Shown piece after piece: positions 1 through 38,129 of a stretch of DNA of 38,566 nt. The DNA is from a virus. How positions within the stretch are numbered: position 1 is the stretch's first letter; each line of letters starts with the position of its first letter. The position numbers and the translations under genes are program-made. The notes below the pieces were generated by a model. That model was not told the DNA's origin. It saw nothing but the letters and a program-made list of their open reading frames with translations, and did not search any database. The stretch is taken from positions 1 through 38,566 of the IMG/VR virus record IMGVR_UViG_3300011116_000739; one strand, 5' to 3'.

Positions 1-1705
1 CAGGTGTAAAATAAGGTGCAGTAGTATTACTTTGTAACGTTATAGATCCTAAATTAGCACCATTTACATATTTAACTGGTTCTACAGTATGAGTATATGT
101 AAAAATTGGACTTGGACCAACTGGTGGAACTGTACTTAAAACTTTTACGTAATAATACGATTCTGTACCTGTTGGGTTATTTTCTTTTAATAAAGCAATA
201 TCATTATCAGCTAAAGGTGAACCACCACCACCTGCATTTATGTTATAAACTAACTGCAAAGTAGTAGTATTAAAAGTACCTCCTTCATTAGGAATAGCAA
301 CTAAACTACTAGAAAATCCTCCATTTTCATTTAATCTGTAAGTAGCTTGAATTGTATCAAGTCTTTCATCTTCATCAAATCTAAAAGTTATTGATCCAGT
401 AGAATCTATTACTGGTACTCCACCTGTAATATCAGGTGCAGAAGCAGTTCCATCATAACTAACTCTTTCAGCTTGACGGCCTGGAATATGAAATGCTTCA
501 CTTTCAGTACCATCTTTATAAACTAAAGTAGCATAAAGAGCATATATTTCATCATATTGAAAACAACGTTTAGTAAAAATTTCAGTTTCTGAGTGAAACG
601 AAGTATTAAAAGTGCTTCTATCTTGAATTTCAATATAAGGTTCTACTTGAATATTATTAATCCAAGGTTGAAGATTGGTTTTTAAAGTTTCTTTTAAATT
701 ACCAATATATAATCTATTATCTAATTGAGTAATAGTTTTAGCTACCCAAGTAATTTTATTAATTAAAATATCTGTACTTGTTGTAGCTGCATTATCTAAA
801 GATATAATTTCTCTAGTAAAAGTACCAGTAGTATTAGGAAAATACCCTAAATCATAAGCTGCTAAAACTTGATTAATTTTAGTTATAACGTATAATTTTA
901 CATTAGGAAAATTAATATCTGAACTAAAACTAATAGTAAAACTTTTACCTGTTAAGGTATTTGGTGGGCATCCATCGTAGTTTTCAATAGGAAGTTGAGA
1001 TGTTTCATTAACTATAGAGATAGGGTTAGATGGAAATGAAAGATTAGTTTCATTAAAATTTTCATCTGCATAAGATGCTAATACGTAATAAACTCCTGAT
1101 TTTAAATTACCTCCATTTTGAACTGAATCTAAATTAATTTTAAATTGTTCAAAAGGTTTTAATACGTATAATTTATTAAACTCATCAATATCAGTGCATT
1201 GAAAGTTAAGATCTACAGCAGGTTCTGGGGTATCTACATTAATGTACCTTAATGGATTTCTAAAATCTACCCAATAAACAGAAAATGTATTATCAGAGTT
1301 AATTTTGTAACTACCTTGAATTTGTGTGTTAAGATTCCAATTAAAATCAGTAGCTCCTACTTTATCCCTAATTAATACCCTGTAAGAATTATCTGTTGCC
1401 AATACACCAATTTCTCCTCTACAATATCTACCTACAATCTGTGTTCCAGGATCATTAAGATCATAAAATTTAGATTCACCTTCAATTACAGAAAATAACA
1501 CTACAGAACCATTGCTAAGTGGAATTTTTCCAATGCATGTAGCACCTGGAGTTATTAATGTAGGATAATTAAAAAGTGGATAATTACCGTCTTCATTAGT
1601 AATACTTCCAACTTCTGAATTAATGTTTACGTTAATATTCAACCTTGATGTTTTATCAGGTTGATTTTGTGGATCACTATCTGTATTTAATAAAAAAGGT
1701 TGCAT
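1..1705 (-). CDS. Large beta-rich tail protein, N-terminal part (runs off left edge)
   Basis: An open leftward frame starts at the ATG at 1705 and has no stop before base 1, so about 568 N-terminal residues are visible. The protein starts MQPFLLNTDSDPQNQPDKTS and continues with strand-rich, Asn/Thr-rich sequence containing GSITNEDGNYPLFNYP and CIGKIPLSNGSVVLFS. This style, where a first domain carries an xISNExGN-like segment followed by CIG.I.L, is what I associate with the large tail (muzzle-type) protein downstream of the ring proteins in crAss-like phages; that assignment is from family memory and gene order, not a search. Its start overlaps the stop of the preceding ring/adaptor gene by one base (TAATG), showing translational coupling. 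Alternative: another long tail hub or fibre protein. Confidence 0.55.
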   Translation of the reverse strand, partial: MQPFLLNTDSDPQNQPDKTSRLNINVNINSEVGSITNEDGNYPLFNYPTLITPGATCIGKIPLSNGSVVLFSVIEGESKFYDLNDPGTQIVGRYCRGEIGVLATDNSYRVLIRDKVGATDFNWNLNTQIQGSYKINSDNTFSVYWVDFRNPLRYINVDTPEPAVDLNFQCTDIDEFNKLYVLKPFEQFKINLDSVQNGGNLKSGVYYVLASYADENFNETNLSFPSNPISIVNETSQLPIENYDGCPPNTLTGKSFTISFSSDINFPNVKLYVITKINQVLAAYDLGYFPNTTGTFTREIISLDNAATTSTDILINKITWVAKTITQLDNRLYIGNLKETLKTNLQPWINNIQVEPYIEIQDRSTFNTSFHSETEIFTKRCFQYDEIYALYATLVYKDGTESEAFHIPGRQAERVSYDGTASAPDITGGVPVIDSTGSITFRFDEDERLDTIQATYRLNENGGFSSSLVAIPNEGGTFNTTTLQLVYNINAGGGGSPLADNDIALLKENNPTGTESYYYVKVLSTVPPVGPSPIFTYTHTVEPVKYVNGANLGSITLQSNTTAPYFTP

Positions 1706-2430
1706 TATCTATTGTATCTTAAATTAATAAAGTGTTCACCAATTGAATCTGAATAAAAGAAATCTCTTGCTGTAGAAATGTTAGGAATAAGTCTAACCCA
1801 TTGATTTTTAAACGATTCCATTCTTGGAATGTCAAACATGGCTAATAAGTTTTCAGCTTCACCTCTGTATCTCATGTAATGATTTTCAGCATAAGTTAAA
1901 GTCATTTCTCTATTAGGGTGTTCAAAACCTCCTAACATTAACATGTAAGTTAACTTCCAAAATAAACATTGAGTTACTGCTTCTTTGTCTGGAATTAAAG
2001 GAAACCCTTCTTCATCAACAGGAAAAGCTTGGTAAGATACACATATAACCTCATCATCAGGAACATTGGTATTGATGTAGTTAGGATTAACAGTGTAGCT
2101 ATAATCTGTATGCATGACAGACATATTAATGCAGTCGTCACAATGCATATCGTAATTAAAAGTTTGAGATCCATATCTTAAAAAAGTGCTTTTGTATGCT
2201 ACCGATTTAATTAAATATAAATCACATGGTATTACGGCTTTACCGTTTTTAATAGTTAGAAATGCAGTTTTATCTATTAACTGTTCTGTACAACCAATAG
2301 CTTCAAGTGCATCTCCAATCCAATCAACAGCTTCTCCAATAAGTCTATCAGAATGCTGAGATAGCAAAGTGCCGTATGCTCCAAAAGCTCTGTTTATTAT
2401 TCTTTTACAAGAAACTGATCTATAATTCAT
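1705..2430 (-). CDS. Ring/adaptor-like tail protein
   Basis: This 241-residue protein begins MNYRSVSCKRIINRAFGAYG. It has an N-terminal helical region with an Ala/Gly-rich stretch (WIGDALEAIGC), a middle beta section (AFLTIKNGKAVIPCDLYLIK), then a helical C-terminal section (CLFWKLTYMLMLGGF, YAENHYMRYRGEAENLLAMF). That helix, beta insert, helix plan fits the ring proteins that stack under the portal in crAss-like virions and the P22 gp4-like head-tail connector group. It sits between a second protein of similar plan (2909-3586) and the large tail protein. The family link is inferred from layout and position; I see no catalytic motif. Cys residues are frequent (C8, CTEQ, CDDC). Confidence 0.55.
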   Translation of the reverse strand: MNYRSVSCKRIINRAFGAYGTLLSQHSDRLIGEAVDWIGDALEAIGCTEQLIDKTAFLTIKNGKAVIPCDLYLIKSVAYKSTFLRYGSQTFNYDMHCDDCINMSVMHTDYSYTVNPNYINTNVPDDEVICVSYQAFPVDEEGFPLIPDKEAVTQCLFWKLTYMLMLGGFEHPNREMTLTYAENHYMRYRGEAENLLAMFDIPRMESFKNQWVRLIPNISTARDFFYSDSIGEHFINLRYNR

Positions 2431-2445
2431 GTTTTTAGCTTTGTA

Positions 2446-2949
2446 TTACAAAGATACTGGAATTTTATCAAATCTGAGATAATATTCGGAATCGGATTTA
2501 AGTCGTTCAGTAAGTTTGTTTTTAGCACCTGATTTACATTTAGTACCATTTGTTCTAGATGAATCAAACTTATACATAGTTACACCTTTAATATTACAGT
2601 TTCTTTTATTCCAATGAAATCCTACGTAATATTTATCTGTATAGTATATAAACTTGTTATCGTCTAATTTACCTTCTTTTCTTAATTTCTTAGTTTGACC
2701 CCAATTTACAGGTGCTATTAAACGGTCATTTTTAACCTTAAAAGATCTGTCAAACCTAAGTACCTGAATTTCACCTAGATGGAAAGGTACTTTAAATTTA
2801 CGGTTTCCTCCTAAAAGCAAATAATCTACAATGTAGTTATTTAATTCAAGGACTATCTTTTTGTATAGTTTAAAAGGAATTTGTTTTTCATAATTAGCAT
2901 TATACCAACTATGACTGTCCGTTAATGTTGTTGTGTGAGATTGCGTCAT
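2446..2949 (-). CDS. Small basic protein of the tail module, unknown function
   Basis: 167 residues, strongly basic in the second half (KKLRKEGK, KCKSGAKNKLTERLK), with a predicted beta section around FKVPFHLGEIQVLRF and YYVGFHWNKRNCNIKG. No signal peptide or membrane segment. Its first 41 bases overlap the 3' end of the ring-like gene at 2909-3586, so both lie in one operon. A basic, Lys-rich protein placed between two ring/adaptor candidates could be a minor virion or assembly protein that touches nucleic acid, but that is inference from charge and position only. Confidence 0.6.
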   Translation of the reverse strand: MTQSHTTTLTDSHSWYNANYEKQIPFKLYKKIVLELNNYIVDYLLLGGNRKFKVPFHLGEIQVLRFDRSFKVKNDRLIAPVNWGQTKKLRKEGKLDDNKFIYYTDKYYVGFHWNKRNCNIKGVTMYKFDSSRTNGTKCKSGAKNKLTERLKSDSEYYLRFDKIPVSL

Positions 2950-3586
2950 TATCTGTATCTTCAGTTGTTCCTAATAAGAATTTTAATTCTGATCCTAATA
3001 CGTCTTTTGTAATCAAATCTAGCAAATCTGCTGTTAATGGATAATTCGAATTATCTGTATAACATAATCCGTCATCACAGGTAAAAGTTCTAGCATCTTC
3101 TGGTTTTTCCAAAATTGCTCTAACATTAATTACTTTAAGATCTAAGGTAGTCGGAAAATAAAGATAATCATTTAAAAAATAAAACGGTAATGTCATTCCA
3201 GGATATTTTCTTTCTGAATAAAATGGACTTCTTTCAGGAAGAATCAAACTAAATCTAGATTGTCTATCTATAGCAGATACCTTTAAAGCATACCTTTCTT
3301 TAAATCTAATAGTTTTAGGAATAGTAAATTCAGTTCTAAGAATGTCACAATCCACATTAAATTCACAACATTCAGCTTTATCTACTTTAATTAATGGAAT
3401 GCAACCTAAATCTTGATAGAAAAGATCATTGTCAAAATAGTTTTTATTCTGATCTTGACGTATATATTGAGCACGTTTATAGTCTACAATAAACGATAAC
3501 TGTGCAACTGAAGGAGTAAAGTCGTCATTAATACGTCCAGCCGACATTAAGTTCAGTAAATTATAGACTATCTCATTTTTTGTCAT
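2909..3586 (-). CDS. Ring/adaptor-like tail protein
   Basis: 225 residues. The N-terminus (TKNEIVYNLLNLMSAGRIND, then FTPSVAQLSFIVDYKRAQYI) is helical. The centre (DCDILRTEFTIPKTIRFK, ALKVSAIDRQSRFSLI, LNDYLYFP) is beta-rich. The end (LTADLLDLITKDVLGSELKFLL) is helical and followed by an Asp/Asn-rich tail. This plan recurs in head-tail adaptor and ring proteins of short-tailed phages, and the neighbours (another such protein and a large tail protein) support it. It has no enzymatic motif. The Asn-rich tail NDAISHNNINGQS is encoded where the next gene starts, so it may be set by overlap rather than function. Confidence 0.5.
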   Translation of the reverse strand: MTKNEIVYNLLNLMSAGRINDDFTPSVAQLSFIVDYKRAQYIRQDQNKNYFDNDLFYQDLGCIPLIKVDKAECCEFNVDCDILRTEFTIPKTIRFKERYALKVSAIDRQSRFSLILPERSPFYSERKYPGMTLPFYFLNDYLYFPTTLDLKVINVRAILEKPEDARTFTCDDGLCYTDNSNYPLTADLLDLITKDVLGSELKFLLGTTEDTDNDAISHNNINGQS

Positions 3587-3788
3587 TTCTATCTGTTTTA
3601 AAGAATGTATGATTATGGCATAATTTTACATTATTACTATTATAATGTTTTATGGTACCGTCTTCTTCTAAAGCTACAACAAAAATTAAATTTTCATGTG
3701 GACCGTAATCTATTAGAAATAGAACTTGACCGTCACCATGAGGAGTTGTAACCCAGAGGAAATTGTTTACCTCTTTAATATCAGCCAT
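3573..3788 (-). CDS. Small hypothetical protein (71 aa)
   Basis: The frame is open from 3830, but the ATG at 3788 gives the better start (MADIKEVNNFLWVTTPHGDG), because the extra 14 residues before it overlap the spanin gene deeply and look non-coding. It is a compact beta-rich protein (QVLFLIDYGPHENLIFVVAL, EEDGTIKHYNSNNVKL) with a basic tail (KTDRNDKK). It overlaps the 3' end of the spanin gene by 22 bases and the start of the ring-like gene by 14. No function recognised; an SH3-like small barrel is possible from the strand pattern. Confidence 0.55.
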   Translation of the reverse strand: MADIKEVNNFLWVTTPHGDGQVLFLIDYGPHENLIFVVALEEDGTIKHYNSNNVKLCHNHTFFKTDRNDKK

Positions 3789-4213
3789 AATATGAATACA
3801 AATATAGCAATTAATACCCAAAAATACCATATAGGGTATCCTTGTTTTACCTCAATAGTTTTAGGAATGGTTACCTTTACAGTATCTATTACATTAACCA
3901 GAATAGAATCATGTACATAAATGGGCCTCCTAACAACCGTAGTTTTGACTTTATTAAGGCTGTCAACTGACTGATATACAGTCGTAAAGCTATCACTAAA
4001 TACTTTGTTGAGGGAATCACGATAAAATAGGGTAAGTTGAAAACTACTATCACCAGGTATAGTATCGTATATCTTAATGAGAGTATCCTTTTTAAAAATA
4101 ACTGTTTTATAAGTGCTGTCACCGTATTTGGGGTTTTTCTTTATAGCTTGTTTTAAATGCCACTCTGCAGTGCAAGAGGTTATCAAAAATAATGTAAAAA
4201 TTAAATATCTCAT
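3767..4213 (-). CDS. Unimolecular spanin candidate (u-spanin)
   Basis: 148 residues with two membrane anchors of different types. The N-terminus MRYLIFTLFLITSC is a lipoprotein signal with lipobox LITSC, which would place a lipidated Cys14 in the outer membrane. Residues about 127-147 (IWYFWVLIAIFVFILWLI) form one C-terminal transmembrane helix ending in basic residues. Between them lies a roughly 110-residue periplasmic span rich in beta strands (TVIFKKDTLIKIYDTI, SFQLTLFYRDSL, TVVRRPIYVHDSILVNVIDT). This is exactly the plan of u-spanins such as phage T1 gp11, which span the periplasm and fuse the two membranes in the last step of lysis. The endolysin and holin candidates are immediately upstream in the operon, supporting a lysis cassette. 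Confidence 0.75.
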   Translation of the reverse strand: MRYLIFTLFLITSCTAEWHLKQAIKKNPKYGDSTYKTVIFKKDTLIKIYDTIPGDSSFQLTLFYRDSLNKVFSDSFTTVYQSVDSLNKVKTTVVRRPIYVHDSILVNVIDTVKVTIPKTIEVKQGYPIWYFWVLIAIFVFILWLILKR

Positions 4214-4503
4214 CTTAGTGCTTCATAAACGGCAACAAATAATATGTTACCTATAGTGTATAATAATAACGTTCCTACTATTGTACCTGAAGCTAACCAA
4301 GCTACCATTAATACCTGCAATGTAGTAGATAAATGCCACATGTCGTAAAACATAGGAAAATATTTTTTAAGAAATGTATGCTTAGGTGCTTCTGAAGTTT
4401 CTCTCCAAAAGAACTTATGGCAGCCTAGTTTTTTAAAACTATCATGATGAGAAATCGAATCCATCACGGCTTTTAGAACAACAAAGACAATTACATATAT
4501 CAT
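4210..4503 (-). CDS. Membrane protein of the lysis cluster (97 aa)
   Basis: Three hydrophobic stretches are visible: residues about 1-13 (MIYVIVFVVLKAV), and a C-terminal pair about 60-93 (TLQVLMVAWLASGTIVGTLLLY, IGNILFVAVYEAL), separated by a charged, His-rich section (SISHHDSFKKLGCHKFFWRE). The stop overlaps the spanin start in an ATGA arrangement, so the two are translationally coupled. Holin or holin-accessory function is possible from position between endolysin and spanin, but the long hydrophilic middle is unusual for a holin and I cannot choose between the three small membrane proteins here. Confidence 0.6.
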   Translation of the reverse strand: MIYVIVFVVLKAVMDSISHHDSFKKLGCHKFFWRETSEAPKHTFLKKYFPMFYDMWHLSTTLQVLMVAWLASGTIVGTLLLYTIGNILFVAVYEALR

Positions 4504-4508
4504 CGGTA

Positions 4509-4652
4509 TTACTGATTAGATTGTTTAGTTTTCTTTTTAGAAACAGCTTTACGTTTTTCGTTAATTTTCTTAATTTGTTCATGACTATCATACTCTAAGT
4601 AGGCAATTAATAATGCCACAAAAATACTGAAAATTACGATTAACTCTTTCAT
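4509..4652 (-). CDS. 47-aa single-pass membrane protein
   Basis: A short frame ATG at 4652 to TAA at 4509 encodes a hydrophobic N-terminal helix (MKELIVIFSIFVALLIAYLE) followed by a strongly basic tail (KKINEKRKAVSKKKTKQ). Its ATG overlaps the stop of the endolysin candidate in an ATGA arrangement, which argues that it is real. The plan, one N-out/C-in helix and a cytoplasmic Lys-rich tail, resembles small class III holins or spanin-like inner-membrane peptides, but function is not established. Confidence 0.6.
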   Translation of the reverse strand: MKELIVIFSIFVALLIAYLEYDSHEQIKKINEKRKAVSKKKTKQSNQ

Positions 4653-5056
4653 GATATTGTAATATTTATTTTTTCTTTTTTCTCTACTTTTTTAAGTTCA
4701 GCCATAAAGTCTTTGAATGCTTTACCTGATTCAAAAATCATATCTTTAGTTTTGATTTTACCTACTAAAAGACAACCTTCAGTATCTTCTGGTTTGTTAC
4801 CAGTATGCATTCTAATACCTGCAAATTGAGGTACGTTTTGTAACTCAGGTAGGTATTTTTGAAATCTATTACTAAAAGATAGTATCAAATTATACTTACC
4901 TCTAGGTATAGCAGTTTGACCAAATATCTTTTCAGTACCTGTTTCTAAGTATCTATCTTTGTCTTCTAATGTGTAACAAAAGAATTCACCGTTAATACTT
5001 AATTCACCAATAGTTGATTTATTAGTGAAGATTTTCCTCTTTACTTGTATTTCCAT
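4649..5056 (-). CDS. DUF5675-type protein, endolysin candidate
   Basis: Start chosen at the ATG at 5056 (MEIQVKRKIFTNKSTIGELS); the frame extends ten codons upstream but inside the preceding gene. The 135-residue protein has the pattern of the phage DUF5675 family: an opening strand pair with FFCYTLEDKDR, then TAIPRGKYNLILSFSNRFQK, and the core GIRMHTGNKPEDTEGCLLVG with conserved His, Gly-Asn and Cys. The H.GN...T.GC.LVG signature looks like the active-site block of an L,D-transpeptidase-like or amidase-like fold, so a peptidoglycan-targeting role is reasonable in this lysis cluster. It lacks a signal peptide, so export would need a holin. The assignment is by motif recall. Confidence 0.65.
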   Translation of the reverse strand: MEIQVKRKIFTNKSTIGELSINGEFFCYTLEDKDRYLETGTEKIFGQTAIPRGKYNLILSFSNRFQKYLPELQNVPQFAGIRMHTGNKPEDTEGCLLVGKIKTKDMIFESGKAFKDFMAELKKVEKKEKINITIS

Positions 5057-5249
5057 TGCCAAAAAAATTAGATAGAAACATACCAATTACTCCAATAATA
5101 CCAATAACCATAGCAACCTTTTCTTCTTCAAAATACACAAATGTACCAGCAGCTGCTGAACAGGTTGTAAATAAAGCTAACCCAAACCTAGCAATGTTCT
5201 TAGGAGTAGGTTTAAAAAATTGATTTAAGCCATAGCTGTACTTTTTCAT
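5022..5249 (-). CDS. Small two-helix membrane protein, holin candidate
   Basis: 75 residues with two hydrophobic segments: about 20-40 (IARFGLALFTTCSAAAGTFV) and 46-62 (AMVIGIIGVIGMFLSNFF), separated by an acidic turn (YFEEEK), with a basic N-terminus (MKKYSYGLNQFFKPTPKN) and a hydrophilic C-terminus (GNGNTSKEENLH). This fits class II-type small holins. It overlaps the endolysin start by 35 bases and has an ATGA overlap with the neighbouring 63-residue membrane gene upstream, so the two could be a holin/antiholin pair. Confidence 0.65.
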   Translation of the reverse strand: MKKYSYGLNQFFKPTPKNIARFGLALFTTCSAAAGTFVYFEEEKVAMVIGIIGVIGMFLSNFFGNGNTSKEENLH

Positions 5250-5437
5250 TTAAAGAATCTTTTAATTAGGGTAATTACTTTAGGTAGTCCTAAGATGATA
5301 CTAATAAGAGAACTTATGATTGCCAAAAAAACGGCAAATACCTGAAGCTCAGGTAACCAATGAGCCATTTTACTAATTAGCAAGAAAACCCAGCTAACCA
5401 AAGCAACTCCAAATTCAGATTTTAATTCATGTGTCAT
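5246..5437 (-). CDS. Small two-helix membrane protein, holin/antiholin candidate
   Basis: 63 residues: a hydrophilic N-terminus (MTHELKSEFG), a first hydrophobic stretch (VALVSWVFLLISKMAHWL), a second (LQVFAVFLAIISSLISIILG) and a basic end (KVITLIKRFFK). Small size, two helices and positively charged C-terminus match small phage holins. It is first in the lysis cluster, coupled through ATGA to the 75-residue membrane protein. Which of the two forms the pore cannot be told from sequence. Confidence 0.65.
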   Translation of the reverse strand: MTHELKSEFGVALVSWVFLLISKMAHWLPELQVFAVFLAIISSLISIILGLPKVITLIKRFFK

Positions 5438-11729: not shown

Positions 11730-12839
11730 TTATTCATTAGTTAGTACCATTTCTGTTTGAGTTTTAAATCTATCACCAGCTTGTGTTACCTCAAGTAAAT
11801 AATTAGCTGACATGCTAACAATTTCTTGATGAGTAGCGTCTGGTAAATCACAATCTTGTTCTAGATAATAAGACACAACATTTGGTTTACGAATATAAGA
11901 TAAAATTACATCAGTTACAACAAAATTAAAATTTCCTGTTTTTTGATAGTAAATATTAAAATGATTTTCTGATGAAAAATACAATGGAAACTCAGCCGAT
12001 GTTTTATTAAACGGATCAGCTTGCATTGCGTAAATATCATCTTCTTGTGTTAATTTACCAGAAGTAGTTAAAGTTGGTGCATTAGTATAAATAGGAATAC
12101 TATAGTTTTCAAAATTTAAAGTAAAAGGACCTTCTTCAGTTTCATCTAATAATTTATATTCGTATTCAAAAACATAAGGAGATGCGACTTGTTTAATTAA
12201 AATTATAATAGAATTTTGAAAATAAAGATCTTTATATGATTCCCAAAAAAATTCTACATCTGAATAATTAACAAAAGCTTTAATTAATTTTTGCATTAAA
12301 ATACTAGCTATTAAACTAGTATCTTCAGGAAAAGAATAATTTACACCTGCAGCAGGAAGTTCTATTGTAATACTAGTTTCAGCTGTTTCAGCTATTTTAA
12401 TTGTTCCTATATTAGTATCAGAAGGAAAATTACTCATATTTAATACAGCATAACTATACAATTCTGTAGTTACTTGAGGAGCTATACTACCACATTGATT
12501 ATGAGCTAATCTAAATCTAGAAGCTACAGCATGATAATAATTTCCAGGAAATTCAAAGTTAACTTTTTCATTTACGTCTGGATCTGAACTTGCAGGAATA
12601 GTTGCTTTTCCAATATAATTAGATACAACAAGAGAACGTAAATCATCAATACGTTTTTGACTCATCTCAAATCCTCTCTTCATAAGATTAGATTTAGATG
12701 AATATTTTTGGTTTAAAAATCTTAGAATACTTCTATTGATAGCAATATCAACTTCTTGACGAGAAAAAGTATCAAACAAAAATGAATTCATTTTATTCAT
12801 TTCAGCTTGAATTTCTGTATGCATCTGTGTTATATTCAT
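11730..12839 (-). CDS. Ring protein / head-to-tail adaptor
   Basis: 369 residues. N-terminal helices (QMHTEIQAEMNKMNSFLFDT, EVDIAINRSILRFLNQKYSS) lead into a beta-rich middle (EKVNFEFPGNYYHAVASRFR, AETSITIELPAAGVNYSFPE, VASPYVFEYEYKLL), and a final strand-helix unit FVVTDVILSYIRKPNVVSYY then CDLPDATHQEIVSMSANYLLE. The last motif, a beta turn into LP...H.EIV..A..YLLE, is typical of the gp4/gp10-like connector and ring proteins of short-tailed phages, including crAss-like ones. Located two genes after the capsid gene, as ring proteins usually are. Probably forms a dodecameric ring under the portal. Confidence 0.65.
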   Translation of the reverse strand: MNITQMHTEIQAEMNKMNSFLFDTFSRQEVDIAINRSILRFLNQKYSSKSNLMKRGFEMSQKRIDDLRSLVVSNYIGKATIPASSDPDVNEKVNFEFPGNYYHAVASRFRLAHNQCGSIAPQVTTELYSYAVLNMSNFPSDTNIGTIKIAETAETSITIELPAAGVNYSFPEDTSLIASILMQKLIKAFVNYSDVEFFWESYKDLYFQNSIIILIKQVASPYVFEYEYKLLDETEEGPFTLNFENYSIPIYTNAPTLTTSGKLTQEDDIYAMQADPFNKTSAEFPLYFSSENHFNIYYQKTGNFNFVVTDVILSYIRKPNVVSYYLEQDCDLPDATHQEIVSMSANYLLEVTQAGDRFKTQTEMVLTNE

Positions 12840-12851
12840 ATTTTTAAAAGT

Positions 12852-12870
12852 AGGGGGCTATTAACCCCCT
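12852..12870 (-). terminator. Hairpin terminator after the 290-aa gene
   Basis: Stem AGGGGG/CCCCCT with a 7-base loop lies 5 bases past the stop of the 290-residue gene. Read leftwards it is followed by ACTTTTAAAAA, a moderate U-tract. Together with the terminators at 10281 and 13784 it breaks the capsid region into units that could be expressed at different levels. Confidence 0.65.
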
Positions 12871-12874
12871 GTTT

Positions 12875-13747
12875 TTATTTAGCTTTTTTAACTTCCTTGG
12901 TTTTCATGCCAAGGTCTAATTGTTTCAATTTTGCCAACATAATAGCATAAGATTCAGAGTTATTAGGACTCTTCAAATATGCAATTGTTTGGTTTAATTC
13001 TCCAAGTGGCTCAGAACCATAGATATAGTTATTACCTACTTTTTGAATTATTTTAGCTTCTACAAATGAAGCTATTTGTGCTTTGTATTCAAGATCTGGA
13101 TCAGATACGATTTCTAATAGTAAACCAGGTTTCTTTTCATAAGCTTCTTCCATTTTTAAATCTTTTTCTTGTTTTTTCAAATTAGAAATAGATGTAACGG
13201 AACCTAGTTCTGGCATTTCTACTGTTAACCTTCTTAATACCCAATCTTGTTTTACTTCGTCTTCAAGTAATTTAGCAAACTCCAACACAGCTTTAGTTTT
13301 AGTCATAAGCTTTTTGCTTCTGTTATCTAATTCTAATTGCTCATCTTCAATGTAATACATTTTAGTTTGTGTTGATTCTGAGTTTAATTTATTCTCTGCT
13401 ACTAATGGATGAGATATTGCAAATTTGTATTTGATGTAATCCATGAGGTCATAAGGCTCATTTAATTCTTCATCAAATCCAATGTTCAATAACTTTCCTT
13501 CGTAAGGAATAGGAATTGCAATGTTGTTAAAATACTTTTCAACTTCCAATCTAAATTTAGGATCTGTAGGTTCTACTCCAATAATTGATGGCATCCATTT
13601 CTTGACTTCATCAAATGTTAAACCTGTTCCTACTGAACCACTTCTTGTCAAATAACTGCCTAAAGTAGCTGTTCTTTCTTGTGTTAAAGAAAGATGCACT
13701 CCGTGTCTACGGACTTCTTTTCTGTGAATTTTAATCTTTTTTTCCAT
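12875..13747 (-). CDS. Conserved-type helical capsid-module protein
   Basis: 290 residues, charged and mostly helical. It opens with a basic segment (MEKKIKIHRKEVRRHGVHLS), then EVKKWMPSIIGVEPTDPKFR and FNNIAIPIPYEGKLLNIGFD, a middle section rich in Lys/Glu helices (QLELDNRSKKLMTKTKAVLE), and an end with QIASFVEAKIIQKVGNNYIY. The VEPTDPxFRxEVEKYFNN...IPYEGK...L piece recalls a protein that regularly follows the capsid gene in crAss-like genomes, but I do not know its role. It probably belongs to the head, since it lies between MCP and the first ring protein with terminators on both sides. Confidence 0.55.
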   Translation of the reverse strand: MEKKIKIHRKEVRRHGVHLSLTQERTATLGSYLTRSGSVGTGLTFDEVKKWMPSIIGVEPTDPKFRLEVEKYFNNIAIPIPYEGKLLNIGFDEELNEPYDLMDYIKYKFAISHPLVAENKLNSESTQTKMYYIEDEQLELDNRSKKLMTKTKAVLEFAKLLEDEVKQDWVLRRLTVEMPELGSVTSISNLKKQEKDLKMEEAYEKKPGLLLEIVSDPDLEYKAQIASFVEAKIIQKVGNNYIYGSEPLGELNQTIAYLKSPNNSESYAIMLAKLKQLDLGMKTKEVKKAK

Positions 13748-13783
13748 GTCTTTATTCTATTAATCAATTTTTTTAATTTAAAA

Positions 13784-13815
13784 ATTAAGGGTAGTGTATT
13801 TCAACTACCCTTAAT
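13784..13815 (-). terminator. Strong terminator after the major capsid gene
   Basis: A perfect 12-bp stem ATTAAGGGTAGT/ACTACCCTTAAT with an 8-base loop starts 11 bases past the capsid stop. Leftward it runs into TTTTTAAATTAAAAAAA, so it can act as an intrinsic terminator. The capsid gene is thus insulated from the downstream tail genes, unless read-through is regulated. Confidence 0.8.
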
Positions 13816-13825
13816 CGTAATATTA

Positions 13826-15274
13826 CTACAAACCAGCAGTACAAGCTAAGTCAATAGAAGTGTTAAATCTTCTAAGTACAACTTGTCCAGCTTTCAAGAA
13901 GTGTACTGAACTACCATCTTTATCAGTTGCAATGATATCGTTAGCAGTAAAGTCAGTTCCTGATGGTGCTTCGTTAATACCTTTTACCATACCACGTAAC
14001 ATTGCACGGCCTTTCTTAGAAACCATAGACAAGTTACTCATACCATCATAAGTAGATGTATCTACAAATGCCATACGGAAAGATTCCAATGGAAGGTTAG
14101 GGTAGTTAGGATGTTTAGGAGAAGCCAAAGCTTGAGGACCATTATCAAAAATAGAAGCAGTTTTGATAATCACTTTGTAACCATCAACGTGTTGATAAGT
14201 ATCAAAGTATCCACCTAATCCCAAATTGTATCCATCACCAGTAACGAATTTGTTATCTGACAATTTGATGTATTGTTTAGCACTAAGCTCATTTTTCATA
14301 GCTTGGTCAAACATTAAACGACCACCAATACCTGTGAACAAAGTGATAACTTTATTTTCAGCATCTGACATACCATAGAATACGTCACGAATTGTTTGGT
14401 CAATTTTATCAGCTGTCAAAGCACCATAGGTATCTTTGTTAGTGATTTGTTCGAACAAACCAGATCCACGTACAATTGGATTACCTTGCTCATCACGTTC
14501 GTTGATAACACCATAAGCATCACGATTTGATTTAGAATACCAGTAGTTAGTTTCACATTCTACACGGAAACTTAAATTGTGTTGGTATTCTTCGTAAGGC
14601 CAATACATTTCACGGTTACCTCCACCTTTGGTGTCTAACTGTACAGTTTTAGCTTTACGATACTTGATGTTACCTTCGTAAGCATAACCTTTACGAATAG
14701 TACCTACGTCACCACGAACTTTAACTGGAGCAGTTGAAGTAGACAAGCTACCAAAAGATCCAAATGAAGCTACCGAATTCCAACCCAATGCATACAATGA
14801 ACCAGCAGCAACTTCACTTGCAGGTAAAAATTCAGATGCATTTTTAGCAACTAATCTTACACTGTAAGCCCATTGACCGTTAGTTTGAATACGGTTAGTA
14901 ATACGTAATTGGTAACCTAAAGGTGACAAGATAGTGTAACCTACAGGAAAAATACCTTCAGCAAAATACAAAGTAGCTTCGGTATAACCGATACCAAAGT
15001 TAGCTGCATAAGAACCTGAAGGAGGTGATTGAAGAGATACTGCCTTGAACAAACGTCCAATTACATCATACTCGTATTCATCACCATCAATTTCTTGAAT
15101 AGCGTTCATACCTTCTGAAAGGTACATTAAAGGAAAACGAGAAGATTCATTACCCATCATACGAGTAAGAACTGGTGCGATTTTGTCAGGCTGTGCATTA
15201 ATCAGACGAGAGAAAGAAGCATCATTACTTTTCATGCTTTCGTTCCACACTTGATCCATTAAGAATTGTGCCAT
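13826..15274 (-). CDS. Major capsid protein, crAss-like HK97-fold
   Basis: 482 residues without signal or membrane segments. The sequence has a helical N-arm (MAQFLMDQVWNESMKSNDAS), the segment APVLTRMMGNESSRFPLMYL, a large middle with YEEYQHNLSFRVECETNYWY and DKIDQTIRDVFYGMSDAENK, and the C-terminal part ITLFTGIGGRLMFDQAMKNE, ending in GQVVLRRFNTSIDLACTAGL. The FTG.GG...F..A and the position between portal/scaffold genes and ring genes match crAss-like major capsid proteins, which adopt the HK97 fold and form T=9 heads. Codons are G/C-richer than in flanking genes and it has its own strong terminator, as expected for the most abundant virion protein. Confidence 0.85.
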   Translation of the reverse strand: MAQFLMDQVWNESMKSNDASFSRLINAQPDKIAPVLTRMMGNESSRFPLMYLSEGMNAIQEIDGDEYEYDVIGRLFKAVSLQSPPSGSYAANFGIGYTEATLYFAEGIFPVGYTILSPLGYQLRITNRIQTNGQWAYSVRLVAKNASEFLPASEVAAGSLYALGWNSVASFGSFGSLSTSTAPVKVRGDVGTIRKGYAYEGNIKYRKAKTVQLDTKGGGNREMYWPYEEYQHNLSFRVECETNYWYSKSNRDAYGVINERDEQGNPIVRGSGLFEQITNKDTYGALTADKIDQTIRDVFYGMSDAENKVITLFTGIGGRLMFDQAMKNELSAKQYIKLSDNKFVTGDGYNLGLGGYFDTYQHVDGYKVIIKTASIFDNGPQALASPKHPNYPNLPLESFRMAFVDTSTYDGMSNLSMVSKKGRAMLRGMVKGINEAPSGTDFTANDIIATDKDGSSVHFLKAGQVVLRRFNTSIDLACTAGL

Positions 15275-16498: not shown

Positions 16499-18844
16499 TC
16501 ACTTACTTGATGGCTTTTTAGCTGCAGTTTTCTCACGTGACTTAATTTCCATCTCTTTCATCTTCATTTCAGCTGCTTTCATTTCTTTTTCATGATCCAT
16601 TCTCTTATTATCATTAAACTGATTAGCTTGCATTTCCTGCATTTTCAGGTTAGTAGTTGTAGCTAATTTAGTTTGTTCAAGAGAAAGTTTAGCTTGATCT
16701 AAAATAGTATCTGCATTAGGACCTTCATCAATAGCTAAAGCTGTAAGTTCAGTACGTTTAATATCCCACATACCTTTTCTGTCAATTTGTTCCAATACAT
16801 ATTGTTGTTGAAGATGTAAAGCTTCTTGTTTCTTATCTTCTAACTGTATAGCAGCTTGATTTTGACTTTGTTGTTGTGCTTGTTGATATTCTTGTAATTT
16901 CTTTTCAGCAACTTTTAATTTAGTTTTAGCTTCAGCAATTGTATTAACATCTAAAGCATCAACTACAGCAGAAGCTGGAGTACCATTTTGCAACATAGGT
17001 TGAGTCAAAGAATGAATTAATTGTAATCTTTCTTGTTCCCTGTTACTATCAGATACAGCAATACCGTACTCAGTTTCCATGTGAGTAAGTACATCCATAT
17101 CCATATAAATTACCTCAGTAGAATTAGGCATAACAAACGTAGCTGCTTTACCGTTAATCCAAGCTAATTTAGAATAATCTATAATTCCTTCATATTCACG
17201 TTTTCTAAATTCATCAAATTTAGTAAAATACATTTCTGTAATAAGTGACGATTGTAATACAGATCTTTCAACTCCACCTACAGTTTCTGATGATGAAATC
17301 TGACCTTCTCTTTGTTTAGAAATACCACATACTTCATCCCATTCTGATTTAATGAAACCTAAAAGATCAATATACATCTTAATGGTTTGTGATGCTAATT
17401 GTAATCTAGTTTGATGGGTAGCATTCATTTTAACAGTGTCTTTTGAATAATCTACAAACATCATACTTACCTGATCAGCATATAGTAACCATTTATCCAT
17501 GCTCCAACCTTGAGGTTTCCAGTTAATATCAATTAATGCCATATCATCTTTCATTTTAGCCATAGCTAATTTAAGACGATGAAATGTAGCATTATATAAT
17601 ACTTGGAAAGGAATACCTCTTGAAACTAAAGATACACTCTTTGAGTTAATGTTAGACATAATCCTACCATTATAAGGTAACTTACATTTTGATGGATTAT
17701 CTAAACTACCTCTTTGTGTTGGTACAGGACGCATTCTTTTATATAATGCAGTACCTAATTTATAACCTTCCCATACTTCATTAACCCAATACCATTCTAC
17801 TTTTTGCCCTTTTTCTGGAGTATAAGTTTCATCTACTTCTAAAGTTTGAGTCATACCCATTTCGTCTACAAAGTCGACAAAACCGATTTTCTTTCTTGAC
17901 TTCCAAACAACATGCATTACTTCTATTAATCTAGACCATTGTTTAAACCCTACACTTCTATCGTAATAAACGTTAGAGTTAGAATTAATAGCTGGACCTT
18001 GAATAGCTAAAGAATCAATTAATTTAATTTCTTTTTCATCTAGCTCATCATAGAACATGTCAATAACAGTAGACGGATGCATATATTTTCTTCTAACTAC
18101 CCAGTCACCGTCTTCTACAAACTGAACATCTGGGTCTTTATCAAAATCTATATCAAGTGGATTTACTACTTCTACAATAGGTTCGTTATGTTCGATTCCT
18201 TTTAACGTATAAGTTTCTCCTGTAACTAACCAATGGAAAAAAGCTAAGTTATATTTCTCATCTAATTTTTGAGTAGACTTAATATAGTCTATTGCTTTTT
18301 GACCAGCAATAGCTCTTTTATCTCTATAAGTAGCTTCAAATTCTTCTTTAACTTTCTCAGGTACAGGTACTTCTTCTGAAGGTACACCTGTCTGAACACC
18401 TTGAGCATTAAGTTCATTAATAAACATTTGCTCTAAGGTCTGATTAATTCTTTGATTTAATTCTTCGTCTTTTTTTGTAACAACATCATCATTTACTACG
18501 TAAACCATTTCTTTCTTAGGACGTTTAGCATATTCTGATGATAAAAGATCCACTTTAGTATTAATGATAGGATAATTCTGAACATCTGACCAGTCTCCTT
18601 CAATAGGGGTACCAAATGGTTCAGTAATTAATTTATAATCTTCTAAGAAAATATTACCATTATAGTAATCGTAAAGCTTTTTTAATTTAAGCTTCCAAGT
18701 GTTAGTAGTAAAAGTAGACCTAGCTATGTAAGCGTTCATAGTGAACTTTACCATAGCATAGTCATTTCTTATCTTATCTTTATACGATACGTTTTGATTT
18801 GGAATATCAAAAGTCATATCTACTCCTGCTGCTGGATTACTCAT
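16499..18844 (-). CDS. Portal protein
   Basis: 781 residues, beginning MSNPAAGVDMTFDIPNQNVS. It has the usual portal layout: an N-terminal clip/wing region with KLYDYYNGNIFLEDYKLI and PIINTKVDLLSSEYAKRPKK, a middle with beta wings (EYNEPIVEVVNPLDIDFDKD type), HRLKLAMAKMKDDMALIDIN, and a stem/crown with long helices (QTIKMYIDLLGFIKSEWDEV). After about residue 600 it is a Gln/Lys/Glu-rich helical barrel or coiled coil (VAEKKLQEYQQAQQQSQNQA to HEKEMKAAEMKMKEMEIKSR). The segment FGISKQREGQISSSETVGG-like (here VCGISKQREGQISSSET) is a typical crAss-like portal landmark. It lies directly after TerL, so it forms the dodecameric DNA entry channel. Confidence 0.85.
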   Translation of the reverse strand: MSNPAAGVDMTFDIPNQNVSYKDKIRNDYAMVKFTMNAYIARSTFTTNTWKLKLKKLYDYYNGNIFLEDYKLITEPFGTPIEGDWSDVQNYPIINTKVDLLSSEYAKRPKKEMVYVVNDDVVTKKDEELNQRINQTLEQMFINELNAQGVQTGVPSEEVPVPEKVKEEFEATYRDKRAIAGQKAIDYIKSTQKLDEKYNLAFFHWLVTGETYTLKGIEHNEPIVEVVNPLDIDFDKDPDVQFVEDGDWVVRRKYMHPSTVIDMFYDELDEKEIKLIDSLAIQGPAINSNSNVYYDRSVGFKQWSRLIEVMHVVWKSRKKIGFVDFVDEMGMTQTLEVDETYTPEKGQKVEWYWVNEVWEGYKLGTALYKRMRPVPTQRGSLDNPSKCKLPYNGRIMSNINSKSVSLVSRGIPFQVLYNATFHRLKLAMAKMKDDMALIDINWKPQGWSMDKWLLYADQVSMMFVDYSKDTVKMNATHQTRLQLASQTIKMYIDLLGFIKSEWDEVCGISKQREGQISSSETVGGVERSVLQSSLITEMYFTKFDEFRKREYEGIIDYSKLAWINGKAATFVMPNSTEVIYMDMDVLTHMETEYGIAVSDSNREQERLQLIHSLTQPMLQNGTPASAVVDALDVNTIAEAKTKLKVAEKKLQEYQQAQQQSQNQAAIQLEDKKQEALHLQQQYVLEQIDRKGMWDIKRTELTALAIDEGPNADTILDQAKLSLEQTKLATTTNLKMQEMQANQFNDNKRMDHEKEMKAAEMKMKEMEIKSREKTAAKKPSSK

Positions 18845-27050: not shown

Positions 27051-27058
27051 CTTCTTGT

Positions 27059-27432
27059 CCTAAGCATGACATTAAACTGCTTATTCTATTTCCAAATTCT
27101 AGTTATAATTAATTGGTAATATAACAGCTTAGACAACTGTTTTCCTATACTAGATAGGTTCTTATTGCTCATGGTAGTGGCTTCCATGTAAAATATTGAG
27201 ACTGCTTTATGAAACCTTAAATTAACCTGGAAAGGTTGTGCCGCTTGAAAGTCATGGCATGTAAAAGAAAACAACTTTATGATGATGCTAAAGCATTACA
27301 CCTAAGCATGTGTATAAACTGCTTATTTAATGCACCATTTCTACTTCCCAAGGGTAGACAATTGTAATATGTAATGGGGTGGAGAGGCTTGAGATAATAT
27401 CAAGATAGTAAACCAAATAAATATTACAATTG
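27059..27432 (+). ncRNA. RNA-like segment with a duplicated hairpin and long-range stem
   Basis: No convincing gene lies between 27051 and 27613. The 10-mer CCTAAGCATG occurs at 27059 and 27301, each time opening a hairpin TAAGCA-N11-TGCTTA (27061-27083 and 27303-27325), and the two copies stay similar for about 40 bases, so this is a diverged duplication. After copy 1 come GTTATA/TATAAC (27102-27125), CATGG/CCATG (27170-27188) and AACCT-GGAA-AGGTT (27224-27237). After copy 2, CAATTGTAATAT (27359-27370) pairs perfectly with ATATTACAATTG (27421-27432), enclosing CTTGA/TCAAG (27388-27404). This suggests two related structured RNAs of roughly 130-240 nt. Function is unknown. Confidence 0.45.
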
Positions 27433-34487: not shown

Positions 34488-34925
34488 ATGAAACAAGAAT
34501 TTATATTTTATAAAGAAGCATTAGCTCTTAAAGAGTTAGGCTTTGATGAGCCTTGTTTTACTTTTTATCCTAAAGATGATAAAATAGGATTTAATGGTAA
34601 ATATCACACAATCAAAGAAGGTTACAAAAACTCCACGGTTAATGATATTTGGATAAAAAAATACAACAAAGATTTTAAATGTGTAACAGCACCAACATAT
34701 TCTCAAGCATTTAGATGGTTTAGAGAAAAGTATAAACTACAACATTTAATATGGTCTGGTAAAATAACAAAAGTATTTTATGGTTATGATATACTTCATA
34801 TTGATAAACAAAAATATATAATCAATAACTCTGAAAATGGTGGTGGAGATTGTAATTGTAAAACCTATGAAGAAGCAGAACTTGCTTGTCTTAGAAAACT
34901 AATTGAAATTGTTAAACAAAAATAA
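34488..34925 (+). CDS. Hypothetical protein (145 aa)
   Basis: Start chosen at ATG 34488 (MKQEFIFYKEALALKELGFD); an ATG five codons before overlaps the previous gene's stop. The product has LALKELGFDEPCFTFYPKDD, TAPTYSQAFRWFREKYKLQH, and YEEAELACLRKLIEIVKQK. The pattern of YxQA..WFREKY.L and EAE.ACL.KLIEI is familiar from Bacteroidota phage and plasmid proteins of unknown function. It is followed immediately by the dCTP-deaminase-like gene. Confidence 0.6.
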   Translation: MKQEFIFYKEALALKELGFDEPCFTFYPKDDKIGFNGKYHTIKEGYKNSTVNDIWIKKYNKDFKCVTAPTYSQAFRWFREKYKLQHLIWSGKITKVFYGYDILHIDKQKYIINNSENGGGDCNCKTYEEAELACLRKLIEIVKQK

Positions 34926-34926
34926 T

Positions 34927-35481
34927 ATGATATTATCAGACAGTAAAATTTTAGAAGAAATGGAAAATGGAAATATTATTATATCTCCATTTGACGAAAA
35001 GTATTTAAATCCTGTATCAGTGGATTTAACATTAGCTCCTCAAATGAAAACTTATACAGAATATAAGTTAGATGTTAGAGAAGATAATAAATGGGCTGAA
35101 ATTAATATTCCTGAAAGTGGATTTCTATTAACTCCTAACAAAGTATATTTATATGCTTGCAATGAAAGAATTGGAGTTAAAGGTAACATTAGAGCTAAAG
35201 TTGAAGGTAAATCTTCTTTAGGTAGATTAGGATTATTTATTCATGTTACAGCAGGATTTATTGATCCAGGATTTGAAGGTAGTTTAGTATTAGAATTAGT
35301 TGCTACACAACCAATTGTTGTTTATCCTAACATGAAGATTTGCCAAGTTGAATTTGCTAGAGTTGAAGGTAACATTAACGAACCTTACAATAAAAAGATA
35401 GGTAGCAAATACATGAATCAACAAGGTGTTCAAGCTTCTTTAATGCATAAAAACTTTGATGAGCACGGTAACAATAAATGA
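34927..35481 (+). CDS. dcd: dCTP deaminase / dUTPase-family protein
   Basis: Start taken at ATG 34927 (MILSDSKILEEMENGNIIIS), after the TAATATG junction; an earlier alternative overlaps the upstream gene. 184 residues match the Dcd layout: front helix ILEEMENG, PVSVDLTLAPQM, GKSSLGRLGLFIHVTAGFID with the trimer-core Ser-Ser and Arg, then PGFEGSLVLELVA and MKICQVEFARVEG. In dCTP deaminases the Glu in LELV and the HVTAG.IDPGF.G stretch shape the active site. The enzyme provides dUMP/dUTP for phage nucleotide supply, or helps keep dUTP low if bifunctional. Confidence 0.85.
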   Translation: MILSDSKILEEMENGNIIISPFDEKYLNPVSVDLTLAPQMKTYTEYKLDVREDNKWAEINIPESGFLLTPNKVYLYACNERIGVKGNIRAKVEGKSSLGRLGLFIHVTAGFIDPGFEGSLVLELVATQPIVVYPNMKICQVEFARVEGNINEPYNKKIGSKYMNQQGVQASLMHKNFDEHGNNK

Positions 35482-35870: not shown

Positions 35871-36109
35871 TTACAGAAGAAAGAATAGTTGAAGTAATTG
35901 ATTATTTTCAATCAGAAGATGTACCTGTTAAACTACATAATTTTTTCAGTATTGCTATAGACAAAACTGAAACTAGGTGTTTAATGGATTATAACCATGT
36001 TGTAGTTAAAAGTCTTAAAAATGATACGAACTATGTTTTAACCATTAGAGACAACGGTTTTCTTGAAGCAAAAAACAAAGACAATAACATTGTAATAGTA
36101 TTAACATGA
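35867..36109 (+). CDS. Hypothetical protein (80 aa)
   Basis: 80 residues: MITEERIVEVIDYFQSEDVP, VKLHNFFSIAIDKTETRCLM, FLEAKNKDNNIVIVLT. Alpha/beta with no motif. Its TGA overlaps the ATG of the split helicase gene (36106), so the two are translated together. Confidence 0.55.
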   Translation: MITEERIVEVIDYFQSEDVPVKLHNFFSIAIDKTETRCLMDYNHVVVKSLKNDTNYVLTIRDNGFLEAKNKDNNIVIVLT

Positions 36110-38129
36110 TCGATTTATTTAGTAGTAGAAGTTTAAAACAACAAGATTTATTTAACAACGGTATTAAATTAGGTCTTAAAGTTTATTATGAATTGATTAC
36201 AGGATTAACAAAACTTGTTATTATTTAATATTTTTAATATATTTGTGTATGGTAACACGAATATGCATTGATTGTAAAGAAGAATTAGATTCTTCAAAAT
36301 TTAATTTTAGGAAATTTAAAACTAGAATAGATTTTAAAACACGTTGTAAAAAATGTCATAAAATTCATCATTACGAAGTAATGAAAAAAAGAAGAGAGAC
36401 ATTTGAACTTAGAGTAAGAGAACGTGAATTAGATTTAATTAGAAGACAAAAAAATCCTGAAAAAGAAATTTTAAGAAGAGCAAAAAAAAGAGCTTTAAAA
36501 GAAAATTTACCTTTTAATTTAGAATTATCGGATATTATTATTCCTAAAAATTGCCCTATTTTAAATATACCTTTAAAATTAAATTCTATTTCAGCTGGAG
36601 ATGATTCTCCAAGTTTAGATAAAATAGATCCTTTAAAAGGTTATGTAAAAGGAAATGTTAAAGTTATTTCTAGGTTAGCTAATATAATGAAAGCTCATGC
36701 TTCTGTAGAACAATTAATGTTGTTTAGAAAAAATATTAAAAAATATCTGAGTCCTGTATAAATCGGTTTAAAATTGGAACACCCAGAAGTGGGCAATCAA
36801 TTACGAACTATGTGAATACGATTAAAGTAACATAGACGTTTAACGACTAGTAGATATGAACGTAACAAAATCTACCACGAAATACCGACTGTACTGGCGT
36901 ACAGATGATATAGTCTGAACTGTAAATATAACAAATGAAATTACAGAATATAAGAATAAAGAGTCTTATAGTTAACAAATGTTGGAAAAACACGATTGGC
37001 AATTTTATTTATACAAGAATGTAATAAACGACATCCTGATAAAGTTATTAATGTTGTTGTACCGACTACAACCCTAAGAGATTCATGGTTAGGTAAGAAA
37101 GGCCATATTGCAGTTAATAAATTAAGTAACGTTGAGGTGTTTATAGTGAACACCTATGTTAAGAAACAACATGAATGTGGATTGTTAATATGTGATGAGT
37201 TACATCATTATGCCAATGAAGCTTCTACTACATTTAAAACGGTCATAGATAGGACTAAGTTTAATTGGTTTGTAGGACTTTCAGCAACATTAGATAGTAA
37301 TCACAAAGCTTTCCTAGCAACTAAAAACATAGTTTCAGCTGGTAAGATTACAGCTAAAGAAGCTATGGAAAATGGTTGGATTAGTAAATACAAGATTCTA
37401 TGTGTACCAATAGAATTAAATGAGGAAGACAAAGAAAGGTATGATAAAATGCATGCTGAGTTTAATAAACACTTTGCAACTTTTGAATTTGATTTTGGTT
37501 TAGCTATGAAATGTGTAACAGATATGAATGAAAGAGATAGATTAGCAGCTAAACTTAATTGGCCAAAAGAAAGAATCAATGCAGCTGTATTTAATTGGAA
37601 CAGAAATATGAGAAACAGAAAGCATTTTCTATATCATATTGAAGCTAAGATTGATGCAGCTATTGAAATTACTAAACGACTACAAATGAAAACTATTTTG
37701 TTTGGCCAGTCTATTAAAGGTGCAGATAAAATAGCTGAAGAATTAGGTGATATCTGTGTTGAATATCATTCAGATATGACTAAAACTCAAGCTAATTTGA
37801 ATCTGAAGAAACTAAAAGACGGTAGAACTAAAGTAGAATGTATTTCATCAGCTAAAGGTTTAGAGGAAGGTTTTGATTTACCTGGTTTAGAATTAGGTAT
37901 TACATGGAGTCGTACTTCTAAAGCTTTAAGAGCTAATCAGGTGCTCGGTAGAATTTGTAGATATGTGCCAGGTAAAACAGCATATATGATAGAACTTTAC
38001 GTACCTGATACTCAGGATGAAAGATGGTTAAAGAACTCTTTGAAAGGACAGTCGAATGTCTATTATTTAAAATCAATTGATCAGATATATCAAATAATTA
38101 ATTATGACAGAGGAATTAAAACGGTTTAA
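36106..38129 (+). CDS. SF2 helicase split by a group I intron: join(36106..36205, 36982..38129)
   Basis: Exon 1 (33 codons plus one base) encodes MIDLFSSRSLKQQDLFNNGI and ends VYYELITG; exon 2 begins TTGGAAAAACACG. Joining them makes GGA TTT GGA AAA ACA, restoring the Walker A GFGKT; neither exon alone has it. The 415-residue product then shows motif Ia VVPTTTLRDSW, motif II LLICDELHHY, motif III VGLSATLD, and the C-terminal RecA-like domain with KTILFGQSIKGADKIAEELG, SSAKGLEEGFDLPGLELGIT (motif V) and NQVLGRICRY (motif VI). It belongs with XPB/UvsW-like SF2 helicases, used in phage replication or recombination. Without splicing, translation stops 7 codons into the intron (TAA 36226-36228) and the product is dead. 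Its end overlaps the next gene by 26 bases. Confidence 0.85.
36206..36981 (+). other. Group I intron (IA-like), 776 nt, with ORF in L1
   Basis: The 5' splice site follows U36205. The guide GTCCTGTA (36751-36758) pairs with exon TACAGGAT (36198-36205), giving P1 with the required U-G pair at the splice site. Other elements traced: P3 TCGGT/ACCGA (36763-36767/36884-36888), P4 AATTG/CAATT (36772-36776/36798-36802), P5 CCCA/TGGG (36782-36793), P6 CTATGT/ACATAG (36808-36813/36830-36835), P7 GACTA/TAGTC (36845-36849/36911-36915) with the R- and S-like contexts AACGACTA and GATATAGTC, an extra P7.1-type stem GTAGAT/ATCTAC (36850-36875), P8 CTGTAC-TGGC-GTACAG (36889-36904), P9 CTGTAA/TTACAG (36920-36946) and P9.2 TATAAGA/TCTTATA (36949-36970). 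The intron ends in G36981. The extra stem between P7 and P3 points to subgroup IA. Confidence 0.85.
36249..36761 (+). CDS. HNH-type homing endonuclease encoded in intron loop L1
   Basis: Start at ATG 36249 (MVTRICIDCKEELDSSKFNF). 170 residues: a CxxC...CKKCHKIHH zinc-binding front, a basic helical linker (VMKKRRETFELRVRERELDL, RRAKKRALKE), then KNCPILNIPL and DDSPSLDKIDPLKGYVKGNV with KVISRLANIMKAHAS. The DSPSLD+ID...GYV.GNV.VIS..AN.MK pattern is typical of phage HNH-like homing endonucleases, which cut the intronless allele so that repair copies the intron in. The stop TAA (36759-36761) directly follows the codons AGT CCT GTA, which contain the P1 guide, so translating ribosomes must run through P1. 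Confidence 0.75.
   Translation: MVTRICIDCKEELDSSKFNFRKFKTRIDFKTRCKKCHKIHHYEVMKKRRETFELRVRERELDLIRRQKNPEKEILRRAKKRALKENLPFNLELSDIIIPKNCPILNIPLKLNSISAGDDSPSLDKIDPLKGYVKGNVKVISRLANIMKAHASVEQLMLFRKNIKKYLSPV

Follow-up and report, generated by a model that had tools for sequence, protein, structure and literature searches.

Among the mobile elements found in the Walker A codons of ATPase P-loops are inteins. Group I introns of the kind considered here are already known (Yutin et al.), and the introns in the dUTPase genes of crAss-like phages (Carjivirus communis BK010471, cr50_1, and cr1_1) are members of the same RNA family. In T4 introns, according to a review, translation and splicing come into conflict where an ORF extends into the intron core, and splicing can be disturbed (PMC2988022). 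For the EndoVII-like homing nucleases of phages, a survey reported that all proteins with the EndoVII motif carry one particular histidine (PMC6083498).

Here we describe a 776-nt group I intron (positions 36206-36981, plus strand) in the gene for an SF2 (XPB/RAD25-like) helicase of a probably crAss-like phage. The window, meaning the whole stretch of DNA analyzed, comprises the 38,566 bases of an IMG/VR virus record. Its large terminase has its best matches in crAss-like cr60_1 and others (~36%), and it also matches Flavobacterium phages (33%). Shortly upstream of the helicase, at 34903-35481, lies a dCTP deaminase-like gene (phrog_1663, 2.2e-50). Judging from the sequence, the intron is very probably a mobile, IA-like group I intron that carries a homing-endonuclease gene. 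The features are collected in Table 1.

Table 1. Helicase exons, intron helices, and intron-encoded features, in positions of the window.
Feature	Position	Strand	Evidence or remark
Helicase exon 1	36106..36205	+	MIDLFSSRSLKQQDLFNNGIKLGLKVYYELITG plus first base of the F codon; 100 nt; spliced frame
P1 5' exon strand TACAGGAT	36198..36205	+	8/8 pairs with guide
Group I intron, IA-like	36206..36981	+	R1 model 107.3 bits; RF00028 25 bits; empty sites
Promoter-like TTG-N20-TATATTTG, Bacteroidota type	36215..36245	+	just ahead of the ORF ATG
HNH/EndoVII-like endonuclease ORF, P1 loop	36249..36761	+	170 aa; phrog_3322, phrog_1035, fold, position
P10 strand TCTGA	36746..36750	+	5/5 pairs with exon 2 36982-36986 TTGGA, two wobbles
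Internal guide GTCCTGTA, P1 3' strand	36751..36758	+	sole fully pairing octamer within the 776-nt intron
Catalytic core P3-P8	36763..36915	+	all pairs standard; covariation in 24 relatives
P3	36763-67/36884-88	+	5 pairs
P4	36772-77/36797-802	+	6 pairs
P5	36782-85/36790-93	+	4 pairs
P6	36803-05/36837-39	+	3 pairs
P6a	36808-13/36830-35	+	6 pairs
P7	36845-49/36911-15	+	5 pairs
P7.1	36850-55/36870-75	+	6 pairs
P8	36889-94/36899-904	+	6 pairs
P9 and P9.1	36920-25/36941-46; 36950-55/36964-69 (span 36920..36969)	+	6/6, 6/6; kept in relatives
Helicase exon 2	36982..38129	+	remaining Walker A through helicase C domain

The first-pass annotation had placed a group IA-like intron within the Walker A codons of an SF2 helicase, a placement borne out by a held-out covariance model, by complete pairing, and by four intronless homologues. 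Its boundaries hold as well: exon 1 ends in T36205 and the intron in G36981, and the guide, the U.G pair, and the terminal G agree. An alternative joint, 36206|36983, gives an identical protein; 36205|36982 was chosen because it keeps G as the last intron base and a U.G pair at the 5' site, while the joint one base later would leave U at the intron end and the guide G no longer opposite the splice site. In silico removal of the intron yields a 415-aa protein containing YYELITGFGKTRLAILFIQ. The predicted restoration of GFGKT was confirmed in the joined frame, which reads ITGFGKTR as does the uninterrupted homologue L003, and the spliced protein combines this Walker A with a DEAH-type motif (DELH) and a helicase C domain. 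Exon 2 has Pfam matches above the cutoffs to Helicase_C (8.9e-9) and ResIII (3.2e-8), and XPB/RAD25 structures match the spliced protein (3.6e-13). The unspliced frame of exon 1 meets a TAA stop at 36226, 20 nt inside the intron, so the full-length helicase depends on splicing. The link drawn earlier between helicase function and intron splicing is right to this extent; it would apply to any intron in a coding sequence and gives no evidence of regulation.

A search for intronless homologues, suggested with the first-pass annotation, returned four helicases on viral contigs (L003-L006, 64-93% identical). All are uninterrupted, exon 1 is matched in them residue by residue, and the R1 covariance model (see below) finds no match in any of the four. 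In the closest, L003 (93% identical), ELITGFGKTRLAILFIQECNKRHPDK is continuous without an intron. Two of its eight guide-pairing positions differ from the window, and the window exon thus suits the intron better than does the empty allele of L003. Since the window is a metagenomic fragment and one intron-bearing helicase allele was found in this phage group, an assembly artefact might be considered, in which an unrelated intron was joined to the helicase; we judge this extremely improbable, given that the guide fits this exon exactly and that the joined frame is base-exact relative to L003.

Guide pairing with the eight exon bases and a traceable P3 to P9, both claimed initially, were recovered in full: the guide pairs at 8/8 positions with 36198-36205, the last pair being the U.G at the splice site, and P3 to P9 pair where expected, as do P10, P7.1, and P9.1. 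Every helix in the window (P1, P10, P3-P8 including P6a and P7.1, P9, and P9.1) is complete with no mispair, and the guanosine-site helix P7 (GACTA/TAGTC) forms 5/5 pairs. Standard searches see little of this. An Rfam scan of the whole window at gathering thresholds gave no group I match, nor did one at E<=1 on 1 kb; with permissive filters on 271 nt, RF00028 aligned over P3-P8 with 25.0 bits (E 1.4e-4) against a gathering score of 50. The Infernal check proposed with the first-pass annotation therefore aligns the core at a sub-threshold score, and at the Rfam cutoff the intron goes unannotated and the helicase is left lacking its ATP-binding loop.

Because RF00028 reached only half its gathering score, we built a covariance model (R1) from relatives of the intron, which were gathered with a DNA pattern around P7-P9 and with blastn; 24 were aligned under a hand-drawn structure, with the window held out. 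This model is decisive. It finds a single match in the window (36760-36919, 107.3 bits, E 1.4e-24 by a rough calibration) with no non-standard pair, supplying the covariance match to P3-P8 on which the first-pass annotation had staked its reading. In the relatives, 90% of cells are paired and 32 of the 41 pairs show changes in both partners; no shuffle out of 500 reached such pairing and covariation, and sliding the partners dropped pairing to 35-40%. P7 is invariant among the 24, hence uninformative for covariation, whereas P7.1, with 6/6 pairs in the window, covaries; P7.2 as drawn is 31% paired. Subgroup IA is marked by extra helices, P7.1 and P7.2, between P7 and P3, and the presence of P7.1 is suggestive of an IA-like intron. 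Free-energy folding of the 3' part of the intron alone was uninformative (z -1.4). The window core, at 107 bits, scores below most relatives, which reach up to 167 with the same model, and its P3-P6 region is AT-rich and diverged, as could be expected of a degenerate group I intron that has lost splicing and left the helicase a pseudogene in this phage. Set against this, all helices are complete without a mispair, the guide and P10 are intact, and the endonuclease ORF and both exons are open and conserved, which makes such decay very improbable.

Most of the intron is occupied by the endonuclease ORF, which did not feature in the first-pass annotation. The ORF is intact, and its profile matches, to phrog_3322 (endonuclease, 1e-30) and phrog_1035 (endonuclease VII, 1.7e-21), are to families that recur in group I introns. 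We considered whether an ORF in the P1 loop is unusual and rejected this, as the arrangement is common in this RNA family and occurs in the annotated crAssphage intron. The 170-aa product has CxxC pairs at its N-terminus and a predicted structure with a pLDDT of 79. Comparison of the predicted C-terminal domain, in which a beta-beta-alpha-metal fold would be expected, with PacI (Z 7.2), Gme HNH (5.5), Hpy99I (4.7), and EndoVII (3.0) is suggestive of a closest resemblance to HNH enzymes, PacI first; Foldseek matches to the same model had non-significant E-values, and PDB sequences searched with a profile of the ORF family gave no match. Where the DHHRN motif reads DHDH...R...N with an invariant first histidine, the window ORF reads LDKID..GYVKG..N, with K at the histidine position and R in the nearest relatives (D-R-I). 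As this catalytic histidine is missing, the ORF is not classed as DHHRN and its cutting activity is uncertain. The promoter-like sequence ahead of the ORF is a weak match, because about two such per strand are expected by chance in the window.

We propose that an external guanosine would cut the transcript after U36205, guided by TACAGGAU paired with GUCCUGUA, and that ligation of the exons after G36981 would restore the GFGKT ATP-binding loop. The HNH/EndoVII-like protein may then cleave helicase alleles that lack the intron, in or close to the conserved Walker A codons, and repair of the cut allele would copy the intron in. The final codons of the ORF, which sits 5' of the core, double as the P10 strand and the guide, and ribosomes translating the ORF would thus be expected to oppose splicing through competition. 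This overlap, together with the interference described for T4 ORFs that reach the core (PMC2988022), could also be taken to mean that the intron is a switch, in which helicase production depends on whether ribosomes on the endonuclease ORF run through the guide. Close helicase homologues, however, lack the intron, and ORFs commonly run into the core in this intron family and in many host genes, so the overlap is not a helicase-specific design. We consider a switch very improbable and retain the mobile intron as the preferred reading.

The relatives place the intron in a family spread over many host genes. That group I introns are known in crAss-like phages, as the first-pass annotation stated, is correct for the dUTPase introns, which score 134-145 bits with the R1 model. 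A placement of their ORFs in P8 was rejected, since these begin upstream of the core and continue through it. In cr50_1 (MT774375.1), RF00028 has four matches, of which only the dUTPase one (27053-27282) is above cutoff; the sub-cutoff ones are at 16836, 17400, and 55422. Flavobacterium phage Fpv1 (NC_031914) carries a family intron at ~2319-3134 inside a Sak4-like gene; its guide is GTCCTTC and its P9 holds a GIY-YIG-like ORF. The record has no intron annotation and contains additional sub-threshold RF00028 matches. Arrays of group I cores of ~180 nt were observed in three IMGVR records, L124 (3300044846_005229, 678-5346), L134 (3300034279_001550, 121-4484), and L142 (3300042569_002782, 12511-14758); in L124 and L134 there are 11-13 cores in ~5 kb, and one or more genes are apparently split by >10 introns with very short exons.

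In five viral contigs (L241-L245), a uracil-DNA-glycosylase (UDG) gene, identified by a Pfam match, is split at GQD|PY by introns that carry, in the loop also used in the window, an endonuclease of the same kind. Their RNA cores are more distant (70-83 bits with R1), and four of them, all but L242, have the guide GTCCTGTA or GTCCTGAA (the latter in L243). The UDG target is ACAGGAT, and L243 (TCAGGAT/GTCCTGA) differs from L241 (ACAGGAT/GTCCTGT) by a compensating change. The target is read as GGA CAG GAT in UDG and as ACA GGA T in the helicase, and the two proteins are unrelated. A tree of the six P1-loop EndoVII-like ORFs did not show them to form one clade, nor was a single clade rejected (p-AU 0.79), and the constrained tree scored better than the free tree. 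In L241-L245 the start codon of the endonuclease ORF is directly preceded by a short hairpin, reminiscent of those at the start sites of T4 intron ORFs, which seems to covary (ACTATA..TATAGT, ACCAT..ATGGT). Two further UDG genes, in viral contigs L147 and L170, are split by family introns; in L147 the insertion is at GMD|PYP, and the short P1 loop holds no long ORF.

Inspection of exon 2, and then of both exons, revealed four more Walker A insertions among the family introns, with splice sites placed by eye. Two are in MoxR/AAA-type ATPases (L133, GEAGI|GKTS, Pfam match below cutoff; L139, GEPGV|AKT, Pfam), one in DnaB (L097, RPGV|GKT, Pfam), and one in a DnaB-like protein (L141, SSGI|GKT, Pfam match below cutoff). 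In these four, codon x of G-x-G-K-T is split behind its second base, in the window behind its first; the ORFs of the four match GIY-YIG-type homing endonucleases. In addition, a helicase homologue of human-gut phage MT835492.1 (30% identical) is split at TGFG|KS by an intron at ~1300-2500, which scores 51.6 bits with R1 (E 2e-11), gave no Rfam match, and has an ORF that looks LAGLIDADG-type on inspection by eye; its P7 looks compensated (GCATA/TATGC). Walker A is thus hit repeatedly but not exclusively: most of the other family introns lie elsewhere, in structural genes, in the genes for dUTPase and UDG, and in the Walker B region of an AAA protein.

The guide zone contains GTCC in 14 of 67 non-redundant cores against 0.85 expected from shuffles (0/5000 reach 14), a count inflated by shared descent and set against a crude null. 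The 14 cores span at least six kinds of host gene. The idea that endonuclease and guide move together, raised by the shared guide, is weakened because LAGLIDADG introns in other genes (L104, L113) have the guide GTCCTGA and GUCC guides occur family-wide. A single guide across unrelated genes would be expected if introns settle where an existing guide fits. We tentatively suggest, as a possibility short of the likely, that one intron family of Bacteroidota phages repeatedly invades codons of catalytic motifs, Walker A included, with a GUCC-type guide fitting ...GGAU| and limiting the sites, and with HNH/EndoVII, GIY-YIG, and LAGLIDADG endonucleases swapped in the P1 loop. Taken together, the relatives make it possible to test how group I introns arrive in new genes, by comparing spread led by the guide (through reverse splicing, or through ectopic homing where short matches occur) with spread led by the endonuclease. 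A literature search over a limited searchable set found no prior description of phage group I introns at Walker A, of reuse of the site with different endonuclease types, or of the guide shared with UDG, which is weak evidence of novelty.

The family presents the same guide in nonhomologous genes and in different frames, with Walker A hit repeatedly, as is known for inteins; P-loop inteins, unlike the window intron, are spliced as protein and not as RNA. The window ORF shares with the F-CphI/DHHRN nucleases the link to group I introns (PMC6083498) and an EndoVII-like profile match, but DKID replaces DHDH and the invariant histidine is missing. With the T4 td intron and I-TevI the locus has in common an intron of probable IA type and an endonuclease ORF whose 3' end overlaps the core RNA (PMC2988022), whereas its ORF lies in another loop and belongs to another endonuclease family. 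It is like the dUTPase introns in that the P7-P9 region has 83% nucleotide identity with that of cr50_1 and in that the endonuclease ORF begins 5' of the core and extends into it; the dUTPase introns differ in their host gene, in an ORF of another HNH family (phrog_1271) that reads through most of the core, and in being annotated in their records.
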